Source: an uncultured Opitutia bacterium
GTDB taxonomy: Bacteria; Verrucomicrobiota; Verrucomicrobiia; Opitutales; Opitutaceae
Length of the DNA: 62,486 nt
Direction of reading: 5' to 3'
NCBI GenBank assembly: GCA_903840415.1
Contig: CAIMFY010000075.1
Location: forward strand, 1-62,486
A program made the translations under genes and the position numbers. The notes below the pieces were generated by a model that saw only the letters and a list, made by a program, of their open reading frames with translations, did not search any database and had not been told where the DNA came from. Positions within the stretch are counted from its first letter, which is position 1; each line of letters starts with the position of its first letter. This document shows, piece after piece, positions 949-62,351 of this stretch.

Positions 949-1002
949 CTGAATTTTTTTTGAGCAAACATTTAGCCACGATTCAGCTACTGCAGCGATG
1001 AT
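949..1002 (+). promoter_or_regulatory. 11-bp-phased operator and -10 for gene at 1036
   Basis: CTGAA at 949, TTGAG at 960, TTTAG at 971 and TTCAG at 982 start exactly 11 bp apart. GATGAT at 997-1002 sits 15 bp after the start of the last unit and acts as the -10-like hexamer. This is the only plus-strand copy of the element, and its geometry is identical to the twelve minus-strand copies. Confidence 0.75.
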
Positions 1003-1035
1003 TCCGCTTCCGGCCGAACATGCCGGTCTTGATTT

Positions 1036-2145
1036 ATGCCCCGTCATTACCTCACCTGTCGCTTAAGTTTTTTCTTCGTTTCCGCCATCGCCGCATTTGC
1101 GCAGATCCCGCGCAAGATGCCGACCCCAGCCTCGCCGGCCGAAGCCACAAAGTGGCGCCAAGAAGGCCGCACGTTGCCGACCCCCGAGTTGCTCCAGCCG
1201 ACGCTCGACGCTACCCTGCCCTCCTTTGTGCCGCGCCCCGCGACCGAACTCTCGGGCCACTTCAAGGGCGCGTCATCCGACGTCCTGGCGGTGCTCACCC
1301 AAAATTGGATCGCCGCGTTTCAAAAATATTACCCCAGAGTCAGCATCGATCTGCCACCGCCCTACGCGGGTAGCCTCGGCGCGGTCGAGCTCATCAAAGG
1401 CGACCTCGATTTCGTGATGGTCTCGCGCGAACTGCGGCCGGCCGACGTCTCCGAGTTCCAAAAAAAATTCAGCTACGATCCCACGAGCATTCCGATCTCC
1501 GGTGGCACATGGCGGCAATTTGGCTTTCTCGATGCCATTGGTGTTTTCGTTCATGCGGAGAATCCGCTGAACAAACTCTCTTTTGCGCAACTCGACGCAA
1601 TCTATTCGAGCACCCATCACCGCGGCGGCACACCGATCACGACGTGGGGCCAGCTCGGTCTCACCGGCGAATGGGCCGATCAGCCGATCCATCGCTGGGG
1701 CGTGAAGCCGTGGAATGGTTTCGAGGAATTTATGCGCCAGCGCGTGCTCAGCGTCGGCGACAAGCGCGGAGAATGGCGCGACGACATTAGTTTCGTGGAT
1801 ACCGTTTTCCCGATCTGGCCCGCAGTCGCAAAGGATCGCTACGCAATCGGTTACGCGGGACTGGCCTACGTCGCCGACGGGGTAAAATTTGTTGCGCTTT
1901 CAACCACGGAGGGGCTCCCATTCGTGCTGCCCGGCTATGAAGAAGTCGCCCGGGCGGATTATCCGCTAAGCCGACTGTGCTTCATGAATTTTAATCGTGC
2001 GCCCGGTAAAGCGATCAATCCTGTGCTGGCCGAACTCCTCCGTTTCATCCTCAGCCGCGAGGGCCAGCGCGTGATTCTCGATCAGGCCGTCTTCCTGCCG
2101 TTGCGTGAATCGCAGGCGGCCACGAGTCGCGCGGCACTGCAGTAA
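1036..2145 (+). CDS. PstS-like secreted substrate-binding protein
   Basis: 369 aa, predicted to be exported (signal peptide about residues 1-23). Fold marks of the PstS/PBP_like_2 family are visible: an 'F.KYYPRV' strand near 95, 'GDLDFVMVSRE' near 122-132, 'NPL..LSFAQLDAIY' near 176-190, the loop 'TTWGQLGLTGEWADQPIH' at 202-219 and 'LRFILSREGQ' near the C-terminus. In canonical PstS proteins these segments shape the oxyanion cleft; the ligand here is unknown. It is monocistronic, the only plus-strand member, and closest by eye to the member at the opposite end (61195-62265). The start at 1036 lies 33 bp after the -10-like element. Confidence 0.88.
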   Translation: MPRHYLTCRLSFFFVSAIAAFAQIPRKMPTPASPAEATKWRQEGRTLPTPELLQPTLDATLPSFVPRPATELSGHFKGASSDVLAVLTQNWIAAFQKYYPRVSIDLPPPYAGSLGAVELIKGDLDFVMVSRELRPADVSEFQKKFSYDPTSIPISGGTWRQFGFLDAIGVFVHAENPLNKLSFAQLDAIYSSTHHRGGTPITTWGQLGLTGEWADQPIHRWGVKPWNGFEEFMRQRVLSVGDKRGEWRDDISFVDTVFPIWPAVAKDRYAIGYAGLAYVADGVKFVALSTTEGLPFVLPGYEEVARADYPLSRLCFMNFNRAPGKAINPVLAELLRFILSREGQRVILDQAVFLPLRESQAATSRAALQ

Positions 2146-2156
2146 GCGCGGCCTTC

Positions 2157-2180
2157 GCGCCCGGCGAAGAGGCCGGGCGC
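2157..2180. terminator. bidirectional stem-loop between convergent genes
   Basis: GCGCCCGGC (2157-2165) pairs perfectly with GCCGGGCGC (2172-2180) around the loop GAAGAG. It lies in the 41-bp gap between the stop of the plus-strand binding protein and the stop of the minus-strand RND gene, where a shared terminator is expected. There is no long T-run. Confidence 0.65.
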
Positions 2181-2186
2181 ACCCGC

Positions 2187-8833: not shown

Positions 8834-8887
8834 AGCATGGGAGCGAAAGCTAAATGAAGCATGAAGCCGGACTGAAAAAAATTTCAG
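8834..8887 (-). promoter_or_regulatory. 11-bp-phased operator and -10 for the YncE/RND operon
   Basis: On the coding strand, CTGAA (8887-8883), TTCAG (8876-8872), TTCAT (8865-8861) and TTTAG (8854-8850) are spaced 11 bp, then CATGCT at 8839-8834. The predicted leader to the ATG at 8814 is only about 13 nt. In the opposite direction, toward the response-regulator gene, the correctly spaced hexamer is CTCGCG, so the element appears to drive only the minus strand. Confidence 0.8.
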
Positions 8888-8948: not shown

Positions 8949-9644
8949 GTGCAGCCTCAGCCGGTAGCCCACCCCGTCGTGAAAATTCTCATCGTCGAAG
9001 ACCAGCGCCGCCTCGGCCAGTTCTTGAAACGCAGCCTGACCGAGCGGGCCTACACTGTCACCTGGGTGCAAACCTGCGCCGAGGCGCGCGATGCCCTGTG
9101 CGAAACGAACTACGACGTCATCATCCTCGACCTCGGGTTGCCCGACGGCGACGGGCTCGATTTGCTCAAGGAATGGCGCAAGGGCGGCTTCCAGGAACCT
9201 GTGCTCATCCTCAGCGCCCGCGACGCGGTCGACGATCGGATCAAGGGCCTCGACGTCGGCGCTGACGATTATCTCGCGAAACCGTTCAGCCTGGAGGAAC
9301 TGCTGGCCCGCGTGCGTTCGCTGCTGCGGCGGCAGAGCAGTTCCAAGGAGACGGTGCTCAAACATGGCGGCATCCGCATGGACCTGCTCGGACGCACCGT
9401 GACGCAAAACGGCCAGCCCCTTGAAATGACGAGCCGCGAATTCGCGCTGCTGGAAGTCTTCCTTCAGAACCCCGGCCGGATCCTCACTCGCACCCTCATC
9501 AGTGAAAAAATCTGGGAGTCGCATTACGACGTCGATACTAACCTCCTCGACGTCTACATGAGCAAACTACGGGGCAAGCTCGAAGTGGAACCCGGCAAAC
9601 CCGTGTTCAAGACCATCCGCGGCGTGGGCTACCAGCTGTTGTGA
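8949..9644 (+). CDS. OmpR/PhoB-family response regulator
   Basis: 231 aa from a GTG with AGGA 11 nt upstream; a shorter GTG start at 8979 gives the classical 'KILIVEDQ' beginning. The receiver domain has the acidic pair in 'VEDQ', phospho-acceptor Asp61 in 'VIILDLGLPDG', Ser89 and Lys111 ('LAKPFS'). A winged-helix domain from about 135 ends 'VFKTIRGVGYQLL', close to the CusR/CopR/QseB group. Its stop overlaps the kinase start by 4 bp. As an OmpR/PhoB-type DNA binder it is the natural candidate to read the 11-bp repeats found before every other transcription unit here. That link is inference. Confidence 0.93.
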   Translation: MQPQPVAHPVVKILIVEDQRRLGQFLKRSLTERAYTVTWVQTCAEARDALCETNYDVIILDLGLPDGDGLDLLKEWRKGGFQEPVLILSARDAVDDRIKGLDVGADDYLAKPFSLEELLARVRSLLRRQSSSKETVLKHGGIRMDLLGRTVTQNGQPLEMTSREFALLEVFLQNPGRILTRTLISEKIWESHYDVDTNLLDVYMSKLRGKLEVEPGKPVFKTIRGVGYQLL

Positions 9645-11071
9645 AGTCGCTCAGCGCCAGGCTCGCGATGCTGTATGCCTTCGTCTCGACGGCGACGCTC
9701 GCGGTCCTGTTTGTCGCAGGCTATTATTTGCTCAACCAACACTTGGTGCGCGCGCTCGATGTGTTGAACGACGCCGAGTTTGGCCAAATCAAGGCGAGCC
9801 TTGGGCCGGACTACGCCGCGCTGACCACTGATAAAATCGAGGAACGCATCCGGCGCACGACGGAAGTGGCCTCCGTGCTGTTCTTCATCGAAGTGCACGA
9901 AAAGGGCGAAGGCGTGCTCTTCAGCTCGAAGAATCTCGGCGACCGGCGCATCCCCGACGTCATCGGCGCCGCCAAATTCAACGTGGTCCTCGAAAACGTG
10001 GGCGAACTGCGCGTCGGCGAATATCTGCTGGGCACCAAAGACGTAATGATCGCGACCTCGCTCATTCAGGTGCGCAAGGTGATGGACGGCTACGCAGAGA
10101 TCAGTCTGGTGCTCATCTGCTTCATGCTGATTGTGAGTGTCATCACGGGTCTGGTGTTGAGCCGCGTGGCGCTACGGCCGGTCCGACTCATGCAGGAAAC
10201 GGCGCACCGGATCCGCTCGGACAACTTGAGCGAACGCATTCCGGTCTCCGCGGTGCAGGACGAGATCTCCGATCTCGCCCGCCTGCTCAACGAGATGTTT
10301 GACCGGCTGGAATCATCCTTCAACCAAGTGCGGCGGTTCAGCGCCGAGGCCTCGCACGAGTTGAAAACGCCGCTCTCGCTCGTGCGCCTGCACGCCGAGA
10401 AACTGCTCATCGAGGGCGGCCTGACGCCCGCGCAGGAGGAAGCGGTGCAATCGCAACTCGAGGAAATCGCGCGCCTCAACAAGATCATCGAGGAACTGCT
10501 GTTCCTCTCGCGCGTCGAAGCACGCGCCGTCACTCCGGAATTGAAGCGCGAAGATCCGAGGCGCTTCCTGCAAAACTTCGCGCAGGACGCGCACGTCCTC
10601 GCGGAGAGCCGCGACGTGCGCTTCACCGAAACTCTCGAGGGCACCGGCATCGTCGACTACGACCCGAAATGGATCCGGCAGGTGTTGCTTAACCTCGTCG
10701 CCAACGCCCTCAAGTTTTCCCCCCGCGGCGGGCTCGTCTCGCTCACGTCAGAATTCACCATCGACGGATGGCGCGTGGCCATCGAGGACGACGGACCCGG
10801 CGTGCCCGCCGAACAGCGCGAGCGCATCTTCGAGCGTTTCGTCCGGCTCAACAATGAGCACCAACTCGAAGACAGCGGCAGCGGACTCGGGCTGGCCATT
10901 TCACGCAGCATTCTCGGCCTGCACCACGGCACGATCCGCGCCGAAGGGGGCACCCGCGGAGCCGGGTTGTGCGTGGTGTTTGAGATTCCCCTCGCCCGCC
11001 CCACGCCGGCCGAACCACCTGCGCCGCGCGGGATCACTGTCGGCGCACTGGCGCCTACCACAGGCCAATGA
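9641..11071 (+). CDS. sensor histidine kinase (CusS-like architecture)
   Basis: 476 aa from a GTG overlapping the regulator stop (GTGA). TM1 is about 8-30, the periplasmic sensor about 31-155, TM2 about 155-175 and a HAMP linker about 175-228. The H-box 'EASHELKTPLSLV' carries His239, followed by the N-box 'NLVANALKFSP' and the G boxes 'DDGPGVP' and 'GSGLGLAISRS'. The sensor domain has no recognised ligand motif. The C-terminal tail is Pro/Ala-rich and its last 17 bp overlap the end of the convergent transporter gene. Confidence 0.93.
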   Translation: MKSLSARLAMLYAFVSTATLAVLFVAGYYLLNQHLVRALDVLNDAEFGQIKASLGPDYAALTTDKIEERIRRTTEVASVLFFIEVHEKGEGVLFSSKNLGDRRIPDVIGAAKFNVVLENVGELRVGEYLLGTKDVMIATSLIQVRKVMDGYAEISLVLICFMLIVSVITGLVLSRVALRPVRLMQETAHRIRSDNLSERIPVSAVQDEISDLARLLNEMFDRLESSFNQVRRFSAEASHELKTPLSLVRLHAEKLLIEGGLTPAQEEAVQSQLEEIARLNKIIEELLFLSRVEARAVTPELKREDPRRFLQNFAQDAHVLAESRDVRFTETLEGTGIVDYDPKWIRQVLLNLVANALKFSPRGGLVSLTSEFTIDGWRVAIEDDGPGVPAEQRERIFERFVRLNNEHQLEDSGSGLGLAISRSILGLHHGTIRAEGGTRGAGLCVVFEIPLARPTPAEPPAPRGITVGALAPTTGQ

Positions 11072-42758: not shown

Positions 42759-42785
42759 CTCGCTGGCACACCGGCGAACCGGGGT

Positions 42786-46652: not shown

Positions 46653-46665
46653 CGGATGGACAGGA

Positions 46666-47637: not shown

Positions 47638-47673
47638 GGAAAGATCGGACGCGGCATCAATGTCTGCCGCCAC

Positions 47674-48639: not shown

Positions 48640-48659
48640 GATGTGAAGGGGAAATGGGT

Positions 48660-49175: not shown

Positions 49176-49209
49176 GGGGTGCGGGAGTTGAGTTTTTAAG
49201 CGTAGCGAA

Positions 49210-49263
49210 AGCATGGAGAAATTTCCTGAAACCGGGCTGAAACAAACGTGAATTTCTGTTCAG
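49210..49263 (-). promoter_or_regulatory. 11-bp-phased operator and -10 for the operon starting at 49175
   Basis: On the coding strand CTGAA (49263-49259), TTCAC (49252-49248), TTCAG (49241-49237) and TTCAG (49230-49226) are spaced 11 bp, then CATGCT at 49215-49210. Confidence 0.8.
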
Positions 49264-49309
49264 GGATGAGTGGGTGGCGCAGGTAAAGTGGCAGCCGTCG
49301 CGGACGCCG

Positions 49310-50314
49310 TCACCGCAGCCGAGCGAGCTCAGCCGCGGCCAATTCCGCCGGCAACGGCAGCCAGCCGCCAGACGCGGCGAACGCCTGCTGGCCCGGTGCA
49401 CTCAGCACGAAGCGCAGGAATTGCGCCTGGAGCGGCGCGATCGCCTGACCCGGCGCGCGGTCGATGACCATGTAGATGGGCCGGACGAGCGGGTAGCGGA
49501 GGGTTTGCACCTCCTCGAGCGTGCCGGTGTAGTAAGGGCCACGGTCGGATTCGGCCACGGCGAGCGTGTGCACGCCCGGGATCACGTTACCGAAACAGCC
49601 GAAGCCGATCGCCGCTGGATCGCTCGCGACGGCCTGCGCGACAAGCTCGTCGGGGCCGAGGTTGCCGCGGCGCATCGGCAGATCGGTCACGGACTTTTTG
49701 AAGTCCGCACCGCGGGTGACGACTTTCTGGATGAAGTAGTCGATGCCGTTCGGCAGCCGGTGCGCGAGCGCGTGGATCGGGCGCGCGGCCCAGTCGCCGG
49801 TCGCGCCGAGATCGCCCCACGTGACAACATCCTGCGCGAGGCCGCGGCGGCGCGCCCGGGAGTAGATCGCGTCGAGCTGGTCGAGCGTGATGCGCGTGAG
49901 CGGATTGCTCGCGTGCACCAAAACACCGAGCGCCGGCGTGAGCCCCGGCGTCGCGTGTGCGCCGATTCCGACTAGGACGACGAACGGTTCGTAGCCGCGG
50001 AGCTTGCGAAACAACTCTTCCTCGTAAGGCCACAGCTCGCGCGCCGGAAACCCCAGATCGGTCGCGCCGGAGATCACCATGGGCACCGCGGCCAAGGGCG
50101 ACGTCGACCGCACGATGAGGTTCATCCCGGGCTGCACGCGTTTGAACCCTTCGACCCACAGCGTCATCAATGGCTCGGCCGAGCTCTCGGCGACGAGGCG
50201 CAGGTCGCCGATGACTTTCGGGCCGGGTGAATATTCGGGATAAGCGGTCTGAGCCTGCGCCAGTGCGGAAAGGCCGCAGGCGGCGAAGGCGAGACAGAGA
50301 TTCATGAAATTCAT
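49310..50314 (-). CDS. PstS-like secreted substrate-binding protein
   Basis: 334 aa with the signal peptide 'MNFMNLCLAFAACGLSALAQA'. It is a divergent member: the loop reads 'TWGDLGATGDWAARPIHAL' and the preceding segment is 'YSRARRRGLAQDVV' instead of 'FGAER'. No operator lies upstream; it follows the frameshifted TonB gene by 108 bp and is probably the tail of the FecI-led transcript. Confidence 0.86.
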   Translation of the reverse strand: MNFMNLCLAFAACGLSALAQAQTAYPEYSPGPKVIGDLRLVAESSAEPLMTLWVEGFKRVQPGMNLIVRSTSPLAAVPMVISGATDLGFPARELWPYEEELFRKLRGYEPFVVLVGIGAHATPGLTPALGVLVHASNPLTRITLDQLDAIYSRARRRGLAQDVVTWGDLGATGDWAARPIHALAHRLPNGIDYFIQKVVTRGADFKKSVTDLPMRRGNLGPDELVAQAVASDPAAIGFGCFGNVIPGVHTLAVAESDRGPYYTGTLEEVQTLRYPLVRPIYMVIDRAPGQAIAPLQAQFLRFVLSAPGQQAFAASGGWLPLPAELAAAELARLR

Positions 50315-50355
50315 GATAGGCTTGGGTGTGGTGAAGTATCGCAGAGCACAGAGAA

Positions 50356-50402
50356 CGCCGAGCGCAGAGGGGGAAACTGATTTCTTCTCGGGGCGCCCGG
50401 CG
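50356..50402 (-). other. imperfect inverted repeat after the frameshifted TonB gene
   Basis: CGCCGAGCGC (50356-50365) and GCGCCCGGCG (50393-50402) can form a 10-bp stem with one wobble and a 27-nt loop. No T-run follows, so it is a weak terminator candidate or an mRNA-processing hairpin. Confidence 0.3.
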
Positions 50403-50422
50403 TTTTGTCGAACAGGACCATG

Positions 50423-52692
50423 CTAGAACGGCGTGGTGAGCGAGAAGGTCATCTTCCTCGGGTCGCCCGCATGCACATTGTTATTCGAAGCCACGTAGGA
50501 GAGATAGCCCCGATCAAGCGCGTTGGAGATGTTCAGCGCGAAACTGTAATGCTTCCACTGATAGAATAACGCGGTGTCGACGCGCACATACGACGGAATC
50601 TCATCCACGCCGACGGAATGTTGGAGAAGGCGCCGTGCCGGTTGCCCGTGTAAATCACCCCGAGACCAAAGCCGAGACCGCGCAGTTCGCCATCGGGAAT
50701 GTTGTAGCGCGTCCAGAGGTTAGCTTGCTGGCGGGGCGCGTTGGAGTTCCGCGCATTGACCTGAGTGGGATCGAGCGAGCGGGTGATGCGCACATCGTCG
50801 TAGGTATAACCAGTCTGAAGCTGCCAGTTTTTCACCGGTTGGTAGGTCACCGAAAACTCCACACCCTCACTTTCCTCCTGGCCAGATACCACAAAGGTCT
50901 GGGCGCCGTCTATGGGCGAGACGCCGTTCGGAATCGGCTCGGCGACATTGTTGCGCACGATGTCATAAAGCGAGAGGGTGGTGTTCAGCTTGTGGTCGAT
51001 CATGTCCGCTTTGACGCCGACTTCGAGCTGGTTGGAAACGGTCGGCACGAAATTCGCGCTGCCGTTGGCATCGACGGTCGTGGCGTTGGGCGGCACGAAA
51101 GATTTCGCATAACTGACATAATAGCCGACATTGTCCGTCGGCTGATACATCAGGCCGAATGAGGGCACCCACGCCTCGTCGGAGCGGCTGCGGTGCTGAA
51201 TGGGATTGGCGAACCTGTCGTCGTAGGAACCGTCCTGCCGGTCGTGGCGGGCCGAGAGCACGAGGCGCCAATGATTCGCGAGCTTGATCTGATCCGAGAG
51301 GTAAACGCCGTAGTTATACTGGCGCGTGATGCCGTCGGACGGCGGAGTCACGGCGTCGGGCGGGAACGGCACGACGGTGAAGACCGGGTTATACAGGTTG
51401 ACGTTGAAGGGCGCGGAGCGCTGGAACGCGAGCCGGAGGAAGTTGCTGTTCTCGTAGCCGCCGTTGAGTCCGAACAGCACCGTATTGCGGAAGGATTCGG
51501 GGCCGAACTCGCCGTAGATGTTCGCATCGATGAAGGTGTATTGGCGCAGATTTTTTTGGTGGCGGAGGCGCCGCACCAAGATCGAGTTCTGGACGTCGGC
51601 GAGCGTCGGCACGATCGGCGGCACAGTGCCGAGGCTGTCGACGGAGGTGACATTCTGATTTTCAAATGCAAGCTTGCCGTCGGTGTGCTCGACGTGGCGG
51701 CCCTGCACTTTCAGCACCCAGTTGTTGTCGAAGCGGTGGCTGAAATTCAGCCCGTAGGTCTCACCCCAGTCGTATTCCTTGCTGCTCGGATCCTGATAGA
51801 CCGTGCCAAAGTTGGGGTGGAGCGAGGGCGTGAAGAAAGGGATGGCAAGAAAACTGTTCGAGAAGCGTTCCTGCCGGGTGATTTCGACGGTGGCGGTCAC
51901 CTGCGTCTTTTCGTCGAGACGATAGGTGAGCGATGGGAAGAAAGAATAGTTGTGGGCCCACATCGGCACTTGGAATCCCGCGAGATGCTCGTAGTCCGCG
52001 ATGATCCGATAGAGCCAATGCTTGCCGGCATCAAGCGGACCGGTGCTGTCCAACTGGCTGATGAAATTCAGGCTGTTGCCGAAGCTCGCGCCCGTGCCAA
52101 ACGTGCCTGCGTCACCGGCGTAGGTGCCGACCGAGGCGAACACGGTGTTGCTCCGCTTCTGGAGCGGCTGCTTCGTGATGATGTTCACGATGCCGCCGGG
52201 CTGCATCAGACCGTAGAGGACGGACGTCGGGCCTTTGATGAGTTCGACCCGATCGACGTTGGCGGTAGTGGGCGAGCCAAAGCGGGAGGCGAGACCCGGC
52301 AGACCGTCGACCTGAAGATTGTTCAGCGTGTCGTCGATGCTGTTGCTGAAACCGCGCAGCGTGAAGCCCACGGCGACGGCCGCCTCGCGGGTCATGCCGA
52401 TGACATACGGGTAAATGTCGTCCAGCGTCTGCGCCCGGAGATCCTGGAGCAACGCGGCATTGAGCACCTGCACGGTTTTCGGCAGGTCTTTCAAATCCAT
52501 CGGCGTCTTGCTGCCGGCGGAGGTCGCTTGCTCGACATAGCTGCCGATAGTGGTGCTGACGGTGAACTGTTCGAGCTTGATGATCTCCTCCTTGTTTTCC
52601 TGCGCCGCGAGCGCGAGTGGGAGCAAGGCCAGCAGGAGGCGGAACGCGCGGGAAGCGCGGCGGCCGCTTTGGGTATCATGGGTGGTTCTCAT
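50423..52692 (-). pseudogene. TonB-dependent siderophore-type receptor with C-terminal frameshift
   Basis: The frame from 52692 (signal peptide ending 'LPLALAAQ', 'IIKLEQFTVSTTIGSYVEQA', plug 'VELIKGPTSVLYGLMQPGG') runs through most of the barrel. Near 50610-50620 the reading frame changes: the last barrel strands ('SYVRVDTALFYQWKHYSFAL' to the terminal 'LTTPF') continue in another frame to 50423. A single missing base near 'NIPS' would explain this. The read-through frame instead ends at 50533 with unrelated residues, and loss of the terminal strands should prevent barrel assembly. It is related to 42786-45065. It could be a sequencing error or a real lesion. Confidence 0.85.
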
Positions 52693-52723
52693 TTTCTTTG
52701 GGTGTGGGTTGGGACGCAGGAAT

Positions 52724-53830
52724 TCACGGAGCCGGGTCGAGCCGGGTGCGCTGCTCGCTCACGGCGGCCGCTGTGAGCGGTAGATAATTGCCGTTGTTGA
52801 CGACGGCCTGCTGGCCTTCGCGGCTCAGGATGTAGCGGAGAAACTCGCGGAGCTTCGGATCGAGCGGCTGGCCGGGCGCGCGGTTGAGCTGGATGAAAAC
52901 ACTGCGCGCGAGCGGATAGGTGCGTTGCTGGATGGTGCGGCGCGTCGGTTCGACGAATGGCCCTGCGTCCGACGCGGCGAGCGCGAGCGGTTTCACTTCC
53001 AACAGGCCGGCGGCGTGCGGAAGACCCGTCCAGGCGATGCCGTATTTATCGTGGGCCAGTTCCTCCGTGAGCATGTGCTGAATGCTGCCCGTCGCGCCGA
53101 CCGGACCGTCGGAGACCATTTTCCCGGCCTCGACGTATTCGCGATAATTGGGCGCCCATTTGTCGCCGCCGTGAAAAACTTTCAGTTGAAAAAAATTCGC
53201 CATGCCAGTGAACGCATAGCCGTAAGTGTGGATCGGCTGGTGCGTCCATTCGCCGCCAAGACCGAGCTGGCCCCACGTGCGGATGTTATCCTCGGGGCCG
53301 CGGCCGGCTTGCGGAATCCATTTGAAGCCGGTGTAGCCACCGGTGCGCTCGGCGCCGAAAATTCCGTCGAGCTGCTTCAGCGTCAGTTGCGTGAGCGGGT
53401 TGTCACGATGGACGTAGATGACGAGGCTCCACGTGCGGCCCTTGATGTCCGCCGCGCCGGTGGCGACGGTGATCTCGGTGAGGTCGTGGCCGAACGCCTC
53501 GGTGAACGCGAGGCATTCGATCAGCATCGGCTCGCGGCCGTTGGTTGCCAGATCGGCCACGCCGCTGACGAGCCCGCCGATGATCGCGGCGTCACTGCCG
53601 GGAAATTTGTCGTCAAAGCTGACGCCGGGCTGCCGCGCGCGGAAACCGTCCTCCCACTTTTGCAACGTGCCCGCGTAGTCGATGCCGTAGTTGCGGATGA
53701 CGCCGGCGACTTTCTGATCCGGCACGTAGGCCGGCAGTCCGCTTAAGTCCCACTCCGCAGCGGCGGCCAGCTTCAGCGCGAGGGTTGCGAGCAGCGCGCC
53801 GGTCAGAAATTTTTGTGTATGCCGCGACAT
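52724..53830 (-). CDS. PstS-like secreted substrate-binding protein
   Basis: 368 aa from the ATG at 53830. The signal peptide is 'MSRHTQKFLTGALLATLALKL'. The loop 'TWGQLGLGGEWTHQPIHTYG' is followed by 'YAFTGMANFFQLKVF'. Its sister is 16366-17469. It lies 25 bp after the next PstS-like gene and 31 bp before the frameshifted TonB gene. Confidence 0.87.
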   Translation of the reverse strand: MSRHTQKFLTGALLATLALKLAAAAEWDLSGLPAYVPDQKVAGVIRNYGIDYAGTLQKWEDGFRARQPGVSFDDKFPGSDAAIIGGLVSGVADLATNGREPMLIECLAFTEAFGHDLTEITVATGAADIKGRTWSLVIYVHRDNPLTQLTLKQLDGIFGAERTGGYTGFKWIPQAGRGPEDNIRTWGQLGLGGEWTHQPIHTYGYAFTGMANFFQLKVFHGGDKWAPNYREYVEAGKMVSDGPVGATGSIQHMLTEELAHDKYGIAWTGLPHAAGLLEVKPLALAASDAGPFVEPTRRTIQQRTYPLARSVFIQLNRAPGQPLDPKLREFLRYILSREGQQAVVNNGNYLPLTAAAVSEQRTRLDPAP

Positions 53831-53855
53831 GAGGAGTGATCGATGGACGCGACGC

Positions 53856-54875
53856 CTACTCAAGCTTGCCGCGCTCCACCGACGCGATGGCGGCCGGCAG
53901 CGGCAGGTAGTGATCCTTCGCGACCAGTTTCTGCCCCTCGCGGCTGAGGACAAAGAGGATAAATTCTTTGACGAGCGGATCGAGCGGCTGGCCGGGGGGC
54001 CGGTTCAAATAGAAATACACGAAGCGCTGCAATGGATAGCGGCCGCTCGCCATGTCCCCGAGGACCGGTTGCCCCAGCACGCCGTTCCGATCGGAGAGCG
54101 CCAGCGGTTTGACCTGATCGCTTTGGAAGTAGGAGAAATTTCCGAACGCGATCCCGTAGCGATCCTCGGTCAACGCCGTAAGGATGTCCTGTGAAACCTT
54201 CGGCGTGCGCCGTTTCATGTCGTCGCCGGGAACGCGGTAGGCGTCCTTGAACGGCGCATCGAGCATCACCAGCTCGCGGAAATATTTCGTGACATCGTCC
54301 CGCCAATAAAAGCCGTAAGGATGCACAGGTTTGTCGGCCCATTCGCCCGTCAGACCGAGTTGTCCCCACGTCGTGAGGTCGGCCGGATAGCCGCGGCGGC
54401 GCTCGGCGGAATAGAGCGCGTCGAGTTCGGCGAGTGACAGGCGGGCGAGCGGGTTGTCCTTGTGCGTGAAAACGCCGATGGCCGAGACGTGGCTCTTCAA
54501 CACGAAGGCGGCCAGACAGATTTTCACGCGAAACGGCTCGTAGCCGTAGGTGTCTTCGAACACCGCGTTGTCCGAATGGAAGACTTCGTCGGTGTTGGGC
54601 CCGAGCGCGATCCGCTCCTCGGGGCCGACGTTTTTCTGGCCAATGGTGATGTTGGCTCCGGGATGAATTTTCCTGAAGGCTTCGCCCCAGGCGCCCATCA
54701 TCGCCTCCACGGTGTCCATGCCGCTGATGCCTGCGAGCGAGCCGGCGACCGGTCGCTGCGGAGCGTAGCCCGGAAGCGCGGGATCGACCAGAACGCTGGT
54801 CGCTTGCGCCATAAGGTGTGTGTTGGCCGCCAAGACCGTGGTGGCGACGACAAAGCCGAGGAGGAGTGACTTCAT
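53856..54875 (-). CDS. PstS-like secreted substrate-binding protein
   Basis: 339 aa with the signal peptide 'MKSLLLGFVVATTVLAANTHLMAQ'. It shares 'ALGPNTDEVF' with 46666-47637. The loop 'TWGQLGLTGEWADKPVHPYG' is followed by 'FYWRDDVTKYFRELV'. It is the first binding protein after the FecI-FecR-TonB genes, separated from the receptor stop by 90 bp holding a strong hairpin. Confidence 0.87.
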   Translation of the reverse strand: MKSLLLGFVVATTVLAANTHLMAQATSVLVDPALPGYAPQRPVAGSLAGISGMDTVEAMMGAWGEAFRKIHPGANITIGQKNVGPEERIALGPNTDEVFHSDNAVFEDTYGYEPFRVKICLAAFVLKSHVSAIGVFTHKDNPLARLSLAELDALYSAERRRGYPADLTTWGQLGLTGEWADKPVHPYGFYWRDDVTKYFRELVMLDAPFKDAYRVPGDDMKRRTPKVSQDILTALTEDRYGIAFGNFSYFQSDQVKPLALSDRNGVLGQPVLGDMASGRYPLQRFVYFYLNRPPGQPLDPLVKEFILFVLSREGQKLVAKDHYLPLPAAIASVERGKLE

Positions 54876-54899
54876 AAGCGGACAAGCGCCACCGAAGGT

Positions 54900-54921
54900 G
54901 CGGAGCAGCGTGGTGCTCCGC
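54900..54921 (-). terminator. perfect 8-bp stem-loop between TonB receptor and PstS-like gene
   Basis: GCGGAGCA and TGCTCCGC pair across a 6-nt loop. There is no T-run on the coding strand. It could attenuate transcription or stabilise the upstream transcript, giving unequal expression of receptor and binding protein. Confidence 0.45.
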
Positions 54922-54965
54922 GCGCCCGGCGGGCTAAACCGTGGGAAGTGGGCCGTGTTTGCGGC

Positions 54966-57900
54966 TCAGAACTTCACGTTACCGGAGACGAACAGCAGCC
55001 GGCCGATCGGCGAGTATTGCGCGGTGTCGGCGTTGTTGTTGTTATTGGCGGCGGCTTGCGAGAGGCCGGCGTAGGGCGGCATCCGGTTGAAGAGGTTGTT
55101 CACGCCGACCGTGACTTTCATGCCCTTGAGGAACGACCACAGGGCGCCGACCTCGGTTTTGTTGAACGTGTAGCTCTCCTGCAAATCCCACGAATAGTAG
55201 GAGCCGACCGTCGCGGACGTGTGTGTCGCCTGCCAGACAGCGGGTGGCGTGCCGCCGACGTCGGTGACCGAGGACGAGTAGCTGTTACCGACAATGGTGT
55301 CCCAGTTGTGCATTTTCCACGCGAGCGTGGAGTAGAAGCTATATTGGGGCATCGTGCCGGCGATGGTCTGGCCATTCGTCGAAAAACCCGCGAATTCGTA
55401 GAACGGCTGGTTCGGCAGCGTCTGATATTTATATGACTGGAGATAAGTGCCGGTGGTGCCGACGGTCCATGTGCCCATGGTCTCCGTCTGAAATTGAAAC
55501 TCGGGACGGAGGTCGAACGACTGCACATGGACGCCGCCGGAATTCACGAAATGATCGGCGATGTAGAGATCGTTTTTGTAATTTCCGCCGACGAGGTAAT
55601 TGGCAAGGCCGCCTGGGCTGGCGAGCAGCGTCTGACTTGCACCCGGCTGGCCGGGCAGACCGCCGACGGCAATGGCGCTGAAGTAGGGCGAGGCGGAACC
55701 GAGGGTGTTCACGCTGGCAATGATGTTGTTGCCGCCGATGCCGGCGGGCAGCCCTTTATAGAACAGATTCGAGTAATCCACCGAGAGCGTGAAGTGCTTC
55801 AGAGCTTTTGGCGAGAAGACGAAGCCGAGGTTGCGCGTCCACGCCTGGCTGGGCTTGAGGTCGGGATTGTTGCCGTTGCCGGAGAAATAAACGAAGGTGG
55901 TGTTGAGCCGCGGATCGGCCGGGAGGTTCGTCGCGAAAAACGTCGAGCTCGAAGACTGCGTGGCGTTCGCCGGCGCATATTCGTGGGAAAGATCGGGGGC
56001 CGCGAACGCCTTCGAGTAAGTGAAGCGCACCGTGAGCTGATCATCGACAGGCTGCCAGCGCAGGCCGAGCTTGGGGACGCTCGATTTGCCGACGTCGGTG
56101 TATTTTTCGCTGCGCTCCGCCGCCGTCACATCGAGAGCATGAGCACCGGTGAACTCATGTCCGGCGCTCGCGAGTGGCACGCGCACTTCGGCGAACACCG
56201 AGTCGATCGCACGGCCCTTCGCGAACGGATCGAAGGCGAGGCCCGCGGCCCAGTTCTTGTTGTTTGGAAAATTCGCCTTGGTGTAGGAATCCTTGTCCGG
56301 GGTGCCGGCGAGGCGTTCCTTGCGCGTGGCGGCACCGAGGGCGAAGCCGAGTTTGCCCGCGGGCAGGTCGAGCGGTTGGCCGACGATCTTGGCGTCGAAC
56401 GAGGTGAGCTTGCTCTCACCCAGCACCTGCTGCGTGCCGAGGACGTTCGCGAGCGAGGCGGCACTCGCGCCGCTGCGCGCGAACGGATCGAGCGCGGGCT
56501 GGATGACATAGTTGATGGTGTTCGGGTAAGTCGTGATGTCGATCACGCGGCTGAAAGCGCCGCCCGGCGTGGCCACACCCGAGGCATTGTAGCCGCCGGC
56601 GATGGCGAGGTCCTGGTTGGGCACGTAGAGATTGTTCGCGATGCGCTGGGTGATTTTTTCGTTGCTGTAGGTAGCGCCGACTTCCCAGCTCCACTCGGGA
56701 TTGATTTCACCGCGCAGGCCGCCGGTCACGCGATCTCCGCTGGCGTCGTTGAACGTCTGGAGCGGATGGTCGAGGAAGCCGACCGAGACGCCGGTAGCGG
56801 CGACGGTGAGTGGGTTGAACGGCGAGCCGGCGGGCACATTGACGCCCGTGCGCAGATTGCCGAGGAAGGTGGTCGTCTGGTTGAAGCCTTTCGTGCGCGA
56901 CAAGAGCGCGTCGCCGAAGGCGACGAGTTTTTTCGGCACGAGATCGAACGAGGCATTCACCACCGCGCCGCGCTGCTCGGACTGCATGAGCAGCGTGATG
57001 TAGGGCGAGGCGTTAAAGAGCGGAATCGAAGGATCGCCCGCGCCCACATAGGTGCCGTTGGCGACGAGTGCGGCGTAACTCGTGGCGGTGGCGGCGGTGC
57101 CGGTGGGATTTTTTCCACTCGGGGTCGCGAGCGAGGCGGTCAGAAAATTGCCGCCGGCAAAGCCGGGAAACGCCGTGCCGGTCTTCAGGTTCTGTTCGAT
57201 GAACGGTCGCTGGTTTTGCCAGAGCGGATCCGTTTTGGACCAACTGCCGCTCACGGTGAGGCTGACGCCGCTGCGGGCGGCGCCGGCGATGAGATAGCCG
57301 GAGCGCTCCGAGTAGTGTCATGTGTTGGTGGAGACGGCGTAGCGACCACCCAACTCGGCGCCTTCGTAGTTGGACTTGAGGATGATGTTGACCACGCCGC
57401 CGATCGCATCGGAGCCATAGATTGCGGAGGCGCCGTCGGTGAGCACTTCCATGTGATCGATGGCGGCGACGGGAATCTGGTTGATGTCCACGAAGTTTTT
57501 GCCGCCGGTGGCGTTGATGCCGCTCATCGCGATGCGGCGGCCGTTGAGGAGGATGAGCGTGTCCAGATTATGGAGCGCGATCTGCGAGCCGCCGGCGGTG
57601 TTTTGATTGACGTTGGTGGCATTGCTCACGCCGGAGTTGCTGCGGCCGGCGAAGGCCGGAATGCTCTCGCGGAGGATTTGGAGGAGGTTGGCGTTAAGGC
57701 CGGTTTGCTCGATGTCCTGCCGGCCGATGATGACGACGGGGGCGTCGGTGGAGTCGGCGGCGGTGGGAATGTTCGAGCCGGTGACGACGAAGGTGGCGAG
57801 CTTCACGGGCGTATCGGCGTCAGTCGCGGGTGCGGTGATTTTGTCGGACTTTTTTTCCGGCGGGGCGGCGACAGGGCGACGGACGGCGAGTGCGCCGGTC

Positions 57901-58205
57901 TTCGCGTCTTCGCTGGAGACGAGGCCAGTGTCGGCGAGCATCGCGTCGAGCGCCTGGCGCGGCGTGAGCGTGCCCTGCACGGGGCGCGTCTGCACATTGC
58001 CGACCGAATCGGCGAACACGATCTCGCGGCCGGCTTGGGCGGCGAATTGCTTGAGCGTCAAGCTCGCCGCGCCCGGGGGCACGTCGAACGTTCGCACTTC
58101 GGGGTCGGCCGCGAGGGCGCGAGAGGACAGGAGGGTCGCAGTGAAGCAGAGCAAGCCGAGCACAAGCCCGACGGCCCGGCGCACCTTGGGGAGGGGAACA
58201 TTCAT
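54966..58205 (-). pseudogene. FecA-type TonB receptor with in-frame TGA at 57318-57320
   Basis: The ATG at 58205 begins a signal peptide ('GLVLGLLCFTATLLSSRALA'). An STN signalling domain (about 35-110, 'LTLKQFAAQAGREIVF') and a plug follow, with 'LILLNGRRI' and 'MEVLTDGASAIYGSDAIGG'. Codon 296 is TGA, and the same frame continues without shift ('HYSERSGYLIAG...') through a full barrel to 54966, ending 'SGNVKF'. A one-base nonsense change therefore separates plug from barrel. The STN domain fits the adjacent FecR/FecI pair as signal transducer. No selenocysteine context was seen. Unless the stop is read through or is a sequencing error, only a 295-aa STN-plug fragment is made. Confidence 0.88.
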
Positions 58206-58233
58206 GGTTGAGTGGGGTTGATGTGGGTTCGTC

Positions 58234-58260
58234 AATACGAACCGCTGCGGCGGAGTTTCC
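58234..58260 (-). promoter_or_regulatory. candidate ECF-type promoter before the FecA-like gene
   Basis: On the coding strand GGAAAC (58260-58255) is followed 15 bp later by CGTATT (58239-58234), similar to ECF sigma -35/-10 pairs. It lies about 30 bp before the ATG, in the 109-bp gap after FecR. A 6-bp inverted repeat (GGTTCG/CGAACC, 58226-58243) overlaps it. It is plausible as the FecI target, but short motifs like this occur by chance. Confidence 0.35.
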
Positions 58261-58314
58261 GTTAAGGAAATATTTCGCGCCCGCGCCACGCGGTGAACGC
58301 TCACCACGCGCGGC

Positions 58315-59364
58315 CTACCGCGCACGGTGCAGGACAATCGTCGCCTCGTCGCGGCGTTCGGCGATCATGCCGAAGTCGGACTCCATCAGCCGGACGAAAC
58401 CCTCGACGTTGTCGGAGCGAAAACTCGCACTGAGGCGCAGCGCCTCGAGGGCGGGCTCGCCCAGCGTAAGACGCACCGAGTTATGGCGGTTAAATTCGGC
58501 GGCGATGTCTGCGAGCGGCGCCTCTGCGAAGTCGAGCAGGCGAGGCTGCCACGCGAGTCTTTCCTCGATCTGGTTCGTAGAAAGCGCGGCAATGGGGGGC
58601 ACGGGCGTCGCGGGCGCGAGCGGCACGACGGCATTCTCGCCGGCAGCGAGCAGCGGCACGGCGGCGCTCATGCCGGTCGGCGAATGTTCGTCGGGATGGT
58701 CGACGCGCACCTTGCCCTCGGTCACGAGCACCTCGACCGCCGCGCTGCCGAGGCGCACGTTGAACACCGTGCCGACCGCCTTCACCTGGACACCGTGCGC
58801 GACGACGATGAACGGCCGTGCCGGATTCTTGGCGACCGTGAAGCTGGCCTCGCCGCACACGAGCCGCACGCGCCGCTCCGTGGGCGTGAATTCCACGGCG
58901 AGCACCGAGCCGCGGTTCAACTGCACCACCGATCCGTCTGGCAGCGCGCGCTGCTCAATCTGCGCCACCGCCGGGCGGGGCGGCGGAGGCGCCGGGATCG
59001 GCGCGGCGCGTGGCCCCGCCCCCGGTGCCCGGAGGAAAATTCCGATCGCGAGGGCCGCGGCGGCGGCGAGCGCGAGCGGTGCAAAGCGGAGGCAGCGCCG
59101 AAAAAATACCCCGCGCCGCGGCGCGAGCAAATCCGGATCGGGCACGGCGCACACGGACGATTGCAGGCCGGCGAGCCGATCCAGTTCTTCCCAGCCGCGG
59201 CGGTGATCCGCCCACGCCGCGCGGTGCTCGGCGCGCCCGGCGAGCCACTGCGAAAACGCGTCCTGCTCCGCGGCTGTCAGCCCGCGATCCTGGCGCAGCA
59301 CCCAGTGGGCGGCGTCACGGGCGACGGCATCGTCGTCGGCCGGCGTTGGTGTTTCGTCATTCAT
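58315..59364 (-). CDS. FecR-family anti-sigma factor / sigma regulator
   Basis: 349 aa from the ATG at 59364, overlapping the FecI stop by 4 bp. The N-terminal cytoplasmic FecR_N motif is 'AAHWVLRQDRGLTAAEQDAF' (about 15-35) with 'WLAGRAEHRAAW'. One TM segment lies about 95-115 ('FAPLALAAAAALAIGIFL'). The periplasmic FecR domain has 'LPDGSVVQLNRGSVLAVEF' and 'VKAVGTVFNV', and a C-terminal secretin-like domain follows from about 275. It relays receptor occupancy from the STN domain to the sigma factor. Confidence 0.92.
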   Translation of the reverse strand: MNDETPTPADDDAVARDAAHWVLRQDRGLTAAEQDAFSQWLAGRAEHRAAWADHRRGWEELDRLAGLQSSVCAVPDPDLLAPRRGVFFRRCLRFAPLALAAAAALAIGIFLRAPGAGPRAAPIPAPPPPRPAVAQIEQRALPDGSVVQLNRGSVLAVEFTPTERRVRLVCGEASFTVAKNPARPFIVVAHGVQVKAVGTVFNVRLGSAAVEVLVTEGKVRVDHPDEHSPTGMSAAVPLLAAGENAVVPLAPATPVPPIAALSTNQIEERLAWQPRLLDFAEAPLADIAAEFNRHNSVRLTLGEPALEALRLSASFRSDNVEGFVRLMESDFGMIAERRDEATIVLHRAR

Positions 59365-59894
59365 CGGCGCGCGCGCTGGTGCTGGCGGAAATACTCCACG
59401 CATTTGCGCAGGCCGATGCCGCCCTGTGCCTCGACGGTGTGTTCGGCGATGCCGAGACGCGCCGCCACCTCCTTTTGGGAAAGACCGTAGATTTTCCGCA
59501 AGGTGAGGACCTGGCGGCAGCGCTCGGGCAGGGACTGGATGGCGGCGATCAAGAGTTGGAGATCCTCGGCGCGCGCGATCGATTCGGGAATGCCCGCGCC
59601 ATCATCCAAGACAGTCGAGACGGTGGTTTCCGTTAAAACTTCCGGCTGCAACAGGCGCAGATGGCGGAGCTGGTTGAGCGCGAGGTTGCGCGCGGTGGCG
59701 AACAAAAACGCGCGCGGACTGGCGATCGAGCCGGTTTCGCGCGCCTTCAGCAGCCGGATGTAGGACTCCTGCACCAAATCGTCGGCGTCACCCAGCGTGG
59801 GGAAACGCACCCGCAGCCAAGCGTGCAGCGCGGGGCCGTGCGGTAGCACCTCCTTCGTGAACCAGCAGTCGGTTTCGCGATCAGGTGCGTGCAT
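59361..59894 (-). CDS. FecI-like ECF sigma factor
   Basis: 177 aa from the ATG at 59894. Region 2 has 'DADDLVQESYIRLLKA' and 'RAFLFATARNLALNQLR'; region 4 has 'LPERCRQVLTLRKIYGLSQK' and 'EVAARLGIAEHTVEA'. It is first of the coupled FecI-FecR-TonB unit. The nearest upstream promoter candidate is the 11-bp-phased operator at 60153-60206, which would put this sigma factor under the same regulator as the rest of the window. Confidence 0.92.
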   Translation of the reverse strand: MHAPDRETDCWFTKEVLPHGPALHAWLRVRFPTLGDADDLVQESYIRLLKARETGSIASPRAFLFATARNLALNQLRHLRLLQPEVLTETTVSTVLDDGAGIPESIARAEDLQLLIAAIQSLPERCRQVLTLRKIYGLSQKEVAARLGIAEHTVEAQGGIGLRKCVEYFRQHQRARR

Positions 59895-59934
59895 GAACGC
59901 GATGGGGGCGTGCGACCGTGCTACGGAGATGAAC

Positions 59935-60030
59935 CTATTTCGCCGGCGCGTAGAGCGCGGCATAGCTCGGAATCGGCTTTTCTAGAGCGTCGCGGATGGC
60001 ACAGGAGATCAGAAGTTTTTGGGTATACAT
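59935..60030 (-). pseudogene. 31-codon remnant of a Cache/PDC-like gene
   Basis: The ATG at 60030 opens a 31-codon frame whose last 21 residues ('AIRDALEKPIPSYAALYAPA') match the C-terminus of the Cache-like copies ('DLRDALQKQIPSHAALF'). Its first residues ('YTQKLLIS') resemble the start of their mature domain ('LAQKLVNEL'). About 100 internal codons and the signal peptide are gone. It still lies between an operator and FecI, the place where copies 1 and 3 head their operons. It may persist as a leader peptide. Confidence 0.65.
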
Positions 60031-60152
60031 GGGGGAACTATGGGTTGCAGGGACACAGGGGAAAAGGACACCGCAGATCCCGACGCATCGGGACCAATCT
60101 CTGCCGGCGCGAAAGCAGCGCTCGCGGCGTGGGTGGGGGTTCACGACCCAGA

Positions 60153-60206
60153 CTCTATCAGGCTCACCTTAAACTTTGCCTGAATAGTGTCTGAATTTAT
60201 ATTAAC
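60153..60206 (-). promoter_or_regulatory. 11-bp-phased operator before the remnant/FecI unit
   Basis: On the coding strand GTTAA (60206-60202), TTCAG (60195-60191), TTCAG (60184-60180) and TTTAA (60173-60169) are spaced 11 bp. At the standard distance the hexamer is ATAGAG, or GATAGA one base earlier. This is the only copy whose -10 does not fit exactly, so promoter strength may differ. Confidence 0.7.
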
Positions 60207-60232
60207 CGGACGCCAGTCGTCGGGTCCTGTGA

Positions 60233-61192
60233 TCAGCGCGCGATTTCACGGCTCGCCGCCGAGATCGTGTCGGGTGGCAGCGGGAAAAACTTCTGCGCAT
60301 CTTCCGCAATTGCACGCTGGCCGGCGGCGCTGAGGGCGTAGCGGATGAAGGCGCGTGTCGCGTCGCCTGGGGCGCGGCCGATGCAAAGGTAAATGGTGCG
60401 CGCGAGCGGATAGTCGCGGTTCGCGACTTCTTCGGCGGTGCCGGGGAAGAACGGCCCTGCGTCGGTCTCGGCGAGCGCGAGCGTCTTCGTGCCGGGCTGC
60501 GCGTAGCCAAAGCCGCTGTAACCGAGGGCTCTTTCGTCGGTGGCGACGGCGCGCACAATGAGTTCCAGACCCTGCGGGCCGTTTCCCGCGTCGGCATGCT
60601 CGGCGAAATCAGTCCGCCACGCTCGACCGGTAAGCAGACGCTGCTCCAGAAAATTCACGATGCCGGGCGGATTCCCAGTTTCGCGCCTCACCACCATACC
60701 GTGCAGCGAGATTTTTTTCTTCGCCCATTCGCCTTTGAGACCGAGCTGGCCCCACGTCGCGATGTGGGTGTCGCGAGCGAAGACTTCGCGGAGTTGGTCG
60801 AGCGAAATGTGTGTGAGTGGATTTTTCTCGTTCACAAATATCGCGATCGCGTGCGTGCCGCCTTTTGTCGCGCGGCTACCCGTCGCCACGGGCACGAGTT
60901 GCGGCGGGCCGCCAAATTTCTTCACGTAGGTGTCGCGCTCGGCGGGAAACAATTCGCGGGCGAATGGCACGACTTCCACTTCGCCGCGCACGAATGCGTC
61001 AAACGCCGCGGCGGCAAATTTCTCCCGCAGCGTCACCCGCGCGGGCGTCTCGGCTGGGAGCGCGTTGAAGCCGCGCGTCCACGCATCCATCAGTCCGGCC
61101 ATGCTCTCGGCGCTGGCGCAGCGCAGCTCGCCCGCGAAACCGCGGGCGAATATCGCGAGCGCGAATACCGCGAGGGCGGCGCGCGCGTTCAT
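60233..61192 (-). CDS. PstS-like secreted substrate-binding protein
   Basis: 319 aa from the ATG at 61192, the shortest loop-bearing member; the open frame to 61609 is not real. The signal peptide ends near 'FARGFAG'. The loop is 'TWGQLGLKGEWAKKKISLHG', with several Lys in the usual 'ADKPIH' stretch. The 'FGAERTGG' segment is reduced to 'FARDTHI'. It is the second gene of the two-gene operon at the right edge, starting 2 bp after the upstream stop. Confidence 0.87.
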   Translation of the reverse strand: MNARAALAVFALAIFARGFAGELRCASAESMAGLMDAWTRGFNALPAETPARVTLREKFAAAAFDAFVRGEVEVVPFARELFPAERDTYVKKFGGPPQLVPVATGSRATKGGTHAIAIFVNEKNPLTHISLDQLREVFARDTHIATWGQLGLKGEWAKKKISLHGMVVRRETGNPPGIVNFLEQRLLTGRAWRTDFAEHADAGNGPQGLELIVRAVATDERALGYSGFGYAQPGTKTLALAETDAGPFFPGTAEEVANRDYPLARTIYLCIGRAPGDATRAFIRYALSAAGQRAIAEDAQKFFPLPPDTISAASREIAR

Positions 61193-61194
61193 CG

Positions 61195-62265
61195 TCAGTT
61201 GAGTTTCGCGAGCTCTTCCTGCACGACCGCGGGGAGAAGCGGCATGAAGACACCTTCGGCGGCAACGACGTCCTGCCCTTGTTTGCTGAGGACGGCCTTG
61301 AGGAACTCCTTGATCTTCGGCTCGAGCGGCTGGCCCGGCGGACGGTTGACGTAAATATAAACGTAGCGCGAGAGCGGGTAAGTGTGTTGGTAAACCGTCT
61401 CGATCGTAGGCATGATGAACGGATCGCCGTCTTTTTCCGCGAGCGGCACCACTCGCACGTCGGGGGTGACATTCGCGAGCAGCGCATAGGTGAGACCGCC
61501 GAGCTGCGTGTGCATGTCGTTCGATGCGACCGTGAACGCGTGGGTGAAACCGATGCCCTTGACGTTTTGGATGCCGTCGCGCCATTCGCCGTTTTGCAGC
61601 ACCTTCCATTTGACGAACTGCTCAATGCCGTTCGGTGGCTTGAGCCCGTAGGTGTGAATCGGGCGATTGGCCCACTCGCCGGTGAGGCCGAGCTGGCCCC
61701 ACGTGGTGATCTCGCTGCCGCCGCGGTTGTGCGACTTCGAGTAGATTTGATCGAGCTGCTTAAACGTGAGGCCCGAGATCGGGTTGTCCTTCGCCACGAG
61801 GACAATCGAGGTTGCGGTCTTGCCGAGCGAGCCGAGCGAACCGGTCGCGACCTTAATCGCGAACGGCTCGTAGCCGAATTTCTTCACGAATGCGTCGTGC
61901 TCGGCCGGCAATGCCTCGCGACCGACTGGCGCCATATGTGCAATCCCAGCGGTGAGTGCAGGCACGCCTGAGCCGGAGGCGCGCGCCTCCATCGTCACGC
62001 TGAGCCGCGGATACGCGGGGCGGAAAAGTTTGATCCAGCCGAGCGTGATTTCGTCCATGATGTCGGCGCCAACAAGGTTGAGTTCTTCCTCTGGCACGGA
62101 CGTGACCGGGCCTGGCTTCCAGACCGGCAGCGCCGGATCGGCCTTGAGGTGATGCTCAACCGCAGCGTATTTCAGCGCGAAAGCCGGTGCCGCCGCGGCG
62201 ATGAACGCGGCAGCAATCAGCCAGCCGTGTGGACGTGAGCGGAGCGAAGGCAGGTCGAATTTCAT
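61195..62265 (-). CDS. PstS-like secreted substrate-binding protein
   Basis: 356 aa. The signal peptide is about 1-30 ('LIAAAFIAAAAPAFA'). 'ASGSGVPALTAGIAHMAPVG' near 96-115 and 'TTWGQLGLTGEWANRPIH' at 187-204 are the cleft-forming segments. It is the closest relative of the plus-strand gene at 1036-2145 (shared 'RGG..ITTWGQLGLTGEWA', '.NG.E.F'), so the two ends of the island carry sister genes facing inward. First in its operon. Confidence 0.88.
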   Translation of the reverse strand: MKFDLPSLRSRPHGWLIAAAFIAAAAPAFALKYAAVEHHLKADPALPVWKPGPVTSVPEEELNLVGADIMDEITLGWIKLFRPAYPRLSVTMEARASGSGVPALTAGIAHMAPVGREALPAEHDAFVKKFGYEPFAIKVATGSLGSLGKTATSIVLVAKDNPISGLTFKQLDQIYSKSHNRGGSEITTWGQLGLTGEWANRPIHTYGLKPPNGIEQFVKWKVLQNGEWRDGIQNVKGIGFTHAFTVASNDMHTQLGGLTYALLANVTPDVRVVPLAEKDGDPFIMPTIETVYQHTYPLSRYVYIYVNRPPGQPLEPKIKEFLKAVLSKQGQDVVAAEGVFMPLLPAVVQEELAKLN

Positions 62266-62308
62266 GGGGACAGGGTAAAACCAACGAAGATTTGTGACGT
62301 GAATCCGG

Positions 62309-62351
62309 AGAGTGTCACAAAATCCTGAATCCGGTCTGAACTAAGTCTGAA
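62309..62351 (-). promoter_or_regulatory. 11-bp-phased operator (three units) and -10 for the right-edge operon
   Basis: On the coding strand TTCAG at 62351-62347, 62340-62336 and 62329-62325 are three perfect units spaced 11 bp, then CACTCT at 62314-62309 at the standard distance. The fourth, outermost unit of the other copies is not recognisable here. Confidence 0.8.

Follow-up and report, generated by a model that had tools for sequence, protein, structure and literature searches.

Does a single regulator command a whole island of genes in an uncultured Opitutia bacterium (Verrucomicrobiota; Opitutaceae) and, if so, through what kind of switch? The question is raised by a stretch of 62,486 nucleotides (contig CAIMFY010000075.1 of assembly GCA_903840415.1, hereafter the window), in which an earlier reading of the bare sequence (the original prediction) had placed one 54-bp operator/promoter element at the head of thirteen transcription units. 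Our analysis indicates that this element is very probably the activator site and -10 hexamer of one two-component regulon, run by an OmpR-family response regulator that the window itself encodes at 8949..9644.

Direct readout of the sequence confirmed the observation of thirteen sites, each present at its coordinates and on its strand; all thirteen align without a gap, so that the 11-bp spacing of the pentamers is exact. Twelve are complete 54-mers, and the thirteenth (62351-62309) has three pentamers only, with GCGCC, which does not match, at the place expected for the first pentamer (block 1). The hexamer behaves as claimed, carrying A2 in 11 of 13 sites and T6 in 12 of 13 (TTTAAT lacks A2; the site at 60153 lacks both), and T12, A15, T23, T24, A26, T34, T35 and A37 are invariant across the sites. 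Words and key bases, the -10 included, carry a mean information of 1.40 bits, against 0.26 in the rest of the 54 bp (the spacers) and 0.20 in the flanks, and because information is confined in this way the likeness is not one of promoters plainly copied. The weight-matrix scan suggested along with the original prediction did not score random positions equally: each site, when withheld from the matrix, outscored all non-site positions on both strands of the window, and with the full matrix the sites reached 36.0-54.5 bits and the top non-site position 12.4. Across the 4.9-Mb genome, a sequence-only model (150 of 458 first-look candidates scored) recovered all thirteen sites at E <= 3.4e-4 among 14 strong matches in total; the fourteenth (C96:193051-193102) had E 5.5e-4 and the next match E 0.078. 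This fourteenth site (L130, 9051-9104) heads an NMT1/PBP31545-like gene on a different contig, 0.2 kb from where that contig ends, so that the island may extend past the window. Measured to start codons that we chose from the reading of the open reading frames (ORFs), and dependent on these choices, the ATG lies 8-59 bases past the hexamer at 12 of 13 sites; the distance of 8 at site 16300 would make that transcript leaderless unless a later start is used, and at site 60153 the ECF sigma start lies 190 bases past the hexamer. With these same starts, site 45177 overlaps the final bases of the preceding ORF and the other sites are intergenic.

The four pentamers had been described as direct repeats, a description that did not survive, as the first (CTGAA) is the reverse complement of the others. 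Block 1 scored better inverted than direct in 12 of the 12 window sites having it, in 19 of 19 sites of relatives and in 8 of 8 sites of a TTCAT type; both this orientation test and our 31-site operator model (R2) leave out the window site lacking block 1 (62309-62351) and the weak matches in L122 and L129. Searching by blocks 2-4 and the -10 while ignoring block 1 yielded 60 sites, 58 of which carry NT[GAT]AA at block 1 (background 0.0048) and none a direct copy. These 60 sites came from 45 loci out of 60, which had mostly been selected for holding the regulator; four of the sites (L119, L123) also built model R2, and eight are the TTCAT-type set of the orientation test. Block 1 as a fourth direct repeat is thus rejected, and because it is inverted in both tests, we define the operator as a 16-bp inverted repeat (CTGAA-N6-TTCAG) followed by two direct half-sites at 11-bp spacing and by a -10 that begins 15 bp downstream of the first base of block 4. 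The consensus half-site is TTCAG and a TTAAG variant occurs (e.g., at 45177); at the TonB promoter, CTTAA...TTAAG in the window corresponds to CTGAA...TTCAG in the same-genus orthologue (L113), both arms having changed together.

Which protein would read this operator? The likely binder is the response regulator at 8949..9644 (+ strand; recognition helix TNLLDVYMSKLR), assigned by domain and alignment, which is accompanied by a partner sensor kinase (9641..11071, + strand; HAMP, HisKA and HATPase_c). Its candidacy, put forward by the original prediction, gains support from co-occurrence across 252 genomes of the family, evaluated at E <= 0.01 for the operator (model R2) and E <= 1e-65 for the regulator, with part of the first-look candidates scored per genome (22 for the operator, 11 for the regulator and PhoB). 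Regulator orthologues (54-100% identity, other regulators in a wider search of relatives topping out at 46%) occurred in 67 genomes and operator matches in 55, such that 46 had both, 21 the regulator only, 9 the operator only and 176 neither (Fisher p 4.7e-25, site and genome counts not being independent events). Removal of the 5 model genomes left 42/21/8/176 (p 1.1e-23), and the operator was present in 16 of 16 genomes whose regulator is >= 78% identical. Among 116 operator matches outside the model genomes, 72 lay on the regulator's contig and 48 within 15 kb of the regulator. The pattern search gave 8 matches at orthologue loci (in 5 of 10), 0 at 9 paralogous-regulator loci and 0 at 80 other regulator loci, the latter being OmpR-family controls of 36-46% identity kept from 593 relatives in a search of GTDB genomes. 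Beyond the family, a scan of 372 genomes of the order returned only 10 partial matches (E >= 0.0019), which we take as chance. The computations support one operator architecture, one regulon and a regulator of the OmpR/PhoB superfamily. As for affiliation, the best NCBIfam match of the regulator, the CopR/CzcR/SilR heavy-metal family TIGR01387, reached 221.5 of 279.2 bits, and neither the PmrA equivalog (217.7 of 330 bits) nor PhoB TIGR02154 (182 of 296.2 bits) attained its cut-off; the nearest family of the kinase, TIGR01386, was likewise below cut-off (236.9 of 292.55 bits). The best relative in the PDB is BasR/PmrA. We file the regulator as one working like the CopR/PmrA types and, because neither family cut-off was reached, as a member of neither.

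In the mechanism that we propose, the kinase would activate the regulator, which would then bind the inverted TTCAG pair (blocks 1 and 2, 16 bp) plus the direct half-sites of blocks 3 and 4, 11 bp apart. With blocks 3 and 4 in the -35 place, RNA polymerase would be brought to the -10 hexamer, which begins 15 bp past the first base of block 4, and about 48 island ORFs would be switched on, among them 26 PstS-like binding proteins, TonB receptors, propellers, an RND pump, organic-acid transporters and heme-type membrane proteins.

This regulator would be a derived paralogue of a family-widespread regulator that uses TTCAT/C half-sites, with helix and half-site having changed together. Position 16 of the operator is G in 15 of 16 sites near regulators with a YMS helix versus 0 of 40 near those with YV/YI-R/K, numbers that overstate independence because the 15 YMS regulators in our tree form one clade (100/100; G261 on a long branch) and that drop 4 of the 60 sites, whose loci hold a truncated regulator or none (two sites of G175, two of G089). 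Both regulator kinds and both site types occur together in G089, G090, G092 and G260. The helix/half-site change was probably one event, kept since. Residues M204/S205/K206 of the window regulator align with PmrA I194/H195/N196, and S205 differs between the YMS and YV/YI-R/K kinds; in the PmrA reports, H195 and N196 contact bases (PMC4660055) and N196 corresponds to PhoB R201 (PMC3973317). It is possible, if on balance doubtful, that after a duplication one copy of the two-component regulator switched its helix (from YV/YI-R/K to YMS) and its half-site (from TTCAT to TTCAG) in concert, grew insulated from the ancestral copy, which some of the same genomes still possess, and gained control of an island encoding at least 26 exported descendants of PstS that neither bind phosphate any longer nor serve an ATP-binding cassette (ABC) transporter.

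Besides the single clade of YMS regulators, several observations weigh against this regulator as the reader of the operator. A site in G204 has C, not G, at position 16, the window sites 60153 and 62309 are weak (the latter with E 0.0285 under model R2), and 15 of the 60 loci searched without block 1 have no pattern match. Twenty-one genomes possess the regulator with no operator match at E <= 0.01, five of which (G029, G111, G182, G210, G265) have sites by pattern. Nine genomes (G022, G023, G062, G144, G169, G180, G194, G196, G205) possess the operator without the regulator at cut-off, some of their sites being strong; G022, G194, G196 and G205 keep them before small-protein/propeller genes, and for G169, G180, G062, G144 and G023 the DNA surrounding the site yielded no homologue of the window's target genes, which limits the reading further. 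The two operators of G169 (L236, 8939-8992 and 10231-10284), where no orthologous regulator was found, are both strong.

These nine genomes could be taken to mean that in some genomes at least the sites have another reader, e.g., a CopR/PmrA-type paralogue, and ~8.5 kb from the sites of G169 there is indeed a regulator fragment of 48% identity; the strong overall co-occurrence and proximity of regulator and operator, together with the empty paralogue loci, speak against this and make it very unlikely. A different candidate is the genome's own PhoB (on contig C94), which would read the sites as PHO boxes and draw the island into the phosphate regulon through its PstS-like proteins. The PHO box consists of TGTCA in 11-bp repeats, with half-sites replacing the -35, and it is this geometry, as well as the PstS-like island genes, that lends PhoB some appeal. 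As the original prediction had noted, however, the word is not the TGTCA of PHO boxes, the half-site being TT(C/A/T)A(G), and the likeness to PhoB boxes that it had drawn proved misleading: the canonical pst operon beside PhoB has no site (the full matrix peaks at 2.7 across this 19-kb locus), nor does the motif track PhoB, which matched in 218 of 252 genomes with no operator association (49/218 with versus 6/34 without, p 0.66, 14 of the 34 PhoB-negative genomes being derived by elimination). Genome G010 has six operators and the regulator with no PhoB match at E <= 1e-65. Nor do the array proteins look like phosphate binders: GSDT, Asp and R-N-T-S-S-G-T of the genome's canonical PstS, which we take to be its phosphate-site residues, are not conserved in the 20 array proteins compared with it (20 of the 26; Asp column gapped in 20/20), and because of this loss we do not read the island as a phosphate regulon. 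The canonical PstS and the sole PstB above cut-off lie on C94, and TIGR02136 is below cut-off for both array proteins tested. Given the motif-free pst operon and the lack of co-occurrence, PhoB is rejected as binder, and its control of the island is exceedingly unlikely. That the promoters resemble each other as a mere trace of tandem duplication, with no common regulator, is scarcely credible: the binding proteins are indeed tandem paralogues, but unrelated lead genes (PepSY_TM, b561, TonB, propellers, ECF sigma) are also headed by sites, information is limited to the words and the -10, and the operator geometry is conserved between genera and in the surroundings of the regulator gene.

We return to the regulon under the island's own regulator and to the units that its thirteen sites, each supported by readout, the leave-one-out test and the genome model, would serve, with unit extents predicted from gene order. 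On the + strand, 949..1002 heads the PBP_like_2 gene 1036-2145; all other sites are on the - strand. Divergent from the regulator gene, 8834..8887 heads a propeller-OEP-HlyD-RND unit (8814 down to 2187), a divergent site adjoining the regulator gene also being found in L119, L123 and L128. Site 15529..15582 heads a PepSY_TM-2HCT-RraA-DASS unit (PepSY_TM is headed by a site also in L114, L184, L188 and L192, and in L179 a site separates PepSY_TM from 2HCT), 16300..16353 a cytochrome b561-type gene, and 18019..18072 a small protein (17981-17466) with PBP_like_2 16366-17469. Two units of seven PBP_like_2 ORFs each follow 26974..27027 (26929 down to 18103) and 37211..37264 (37161 down to 28236), with a beta-propeller gene (28135 down to 27068) behind 28163..28216. 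Four PBP_like_2 ORFs and one of NMT1 type (42631 down to 37287) are headed by 42644..42697, a TonB receptor (45065 down to 42786) by 45124..45177, and a small protein-propeller-PBP unit (49175 down to 45163) by 49210..49263. The weaker site 60153..60206, with its imperfect -10, lies 190 bases before an ECF sigma-FecR-TonB-PBP unit (59963 down to 49310), and the three-half-site operator 62309..62351, without inverted block 1, heads two PBP_like_2 ORFs (62265 down to 60233). Altogether, 48 of the 50 ORFs examined are co-directional and downstream of a site, the other two being the regulator and kinase. The TonB receptor of the ECF/FecR unit (54966-58364, - strand) is split by one in-frame stop at 57318-57320 and is a single open frame in L181 (G178). 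The small proteins at 17466-17981, 46146-46652 and 48660-49175 have no Pfam match, and the two examined in full hold a DDDDD stretch; such small-protein genes and the propeller keep the operator in G194, G196 and G205 (L237-L239), where no orthologous regulator was found.

The island includes an array of PstS-like PBP_like_2 proteins (16366..62265, - strand, by Pfam matches, with one ORF frame taken as 53856-54875). The window holds 26 of the genome's 27 PF12849 (PBP_like_2) matches, counting 1036-2145, and the 50 ORFs gave no match to an ABC permease or ATPase (Pfam, E <= 0.001). A profile of 24 array proteins matches 4omb (E 4.8e-89), which is also the top PDB match of a predicted model of 61195-62265 (predicted local distance difference test 86.6; TM-scores 0.57/0.65); by profile and model, the array proteins are of PstS-type descent. 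To the eye their N-termini look signal-like, which suggests that the proteins are exported. Other island products are TonB receptors, WD40-like propellers, the RND pump (only partly CusA-like, 477.9 of 701.45 bits), DASS, 2HCT, RraA-like, PepSY_TM, cytochrome b561, FecR and ECF sigma proteins. If we were to guess at the role of the regulon, the organic-acid transporters, a siderophore-type TonB receptor (TIGR01783, 228.5 of 223.5 bits), FecR/ECF and b561/PepSY_TM hint at iron, citrate or redox.

Islands in genomes outside the model hold largely the same genes, with sites heading units. In G178, a single 4.15-Mb contig, they span ~75 kb (1,435,861-1,510,496) with sites at unit heads and ~33 PBP-type matches by our own count, and large parts recur in the stretches fetched from G175, G187, G204, G260 and G110. 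In basal genomes, regulators of the YV/YI-R/K kind keep other company: YceI, polyprenyl synthetase, a MacB-type permease and a FixO-like protein in G021, parts of this set in G020, G029, G014, G034, G005 and G007, and a sulfatase, a b561-like ORF (by eye) and PMT in G004. In L163, L168, L128 and L165 (G021, G020, G014 and G029), such a regulator lies in or near a YceI, polyprenyl synthetase or FixO-like set with the operator at its head, an arrangement that suggests autoregulation. The 3.0-Mb genome G010 has >= 38 PBP_like_2 matches spread over many contigs, all weaker than the canonical PstS of its relatives, and lacks a PhoB match at cut-off.

To summarize what this means, some family members carry an island of about 25 binding proteins whose gene groups start with one four-part switch and apparently have one island-encoded reader. 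The analysis provides a regulator, its operator and nearly the whole local regulon, as well as a naturally occurring example of one genome housing paralogous OmpR-family regulators that differ in half-site, for which two residues are candidates. It also links an unexplained family of at least 26 orphan PstS-like proteins to a single signal, such that the ligand of the kinase would point to their purpose; should the diverged-regulator reading be true, they would amount to a novel type of periplasmic battery, for binding or for sensing, that a single switch controls. Among the papers listed for family and operator type from an open-access library of 5.39 million, judged mostly by title and abstract, we found no description of this system.

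Among known systems, PhoB shares 11-bp half-sites at the -35 place with the operator described here and differs in word, inverted block 1, target genes and co-occurrence. Salmonella PhoP promoters (PMC3335776) have GTTTA half-sites in boxes 12 nt upstream of the -10 and no fixed inverted partner; the direct box about one turn upstream of the -10 is alike, whereas the half-site word and the fixed inverted partner here are not. The PmrA box is a direct pair of half-sites (CTTAAG/CTTAAT) with an 11-bp period (PMC3973317 and PMC4660055). It shares that period, its CTTAAG is one base from our half-site, and Thr-Asn opens the recognition helix in both, but it is a direct pair where we see an inverted block. 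The closest published operator that we found is the AgrR composite of inverted and direct half-sites (Cupriavidus metallidurans, CopR/CzcR-type; PMC7380067), in which a 16-bp inverted repeat is joined at some operators by an in-phase direct half-site, both aiding activation from a class II position with a poor -35. The same 16-bp inverted repeat and in-phase direct half-sites are present here, and the class II position, the poor -35 and the part of both elements in activation would be shared; the half-site, however, reads (A)TTCAG where AgrR has TGTMAT, two further direct half-sites are constant, the island genes are not silver/copper genes, and the inverted repeat would sit about one turn further upstream (at about -52 versus -43.5).

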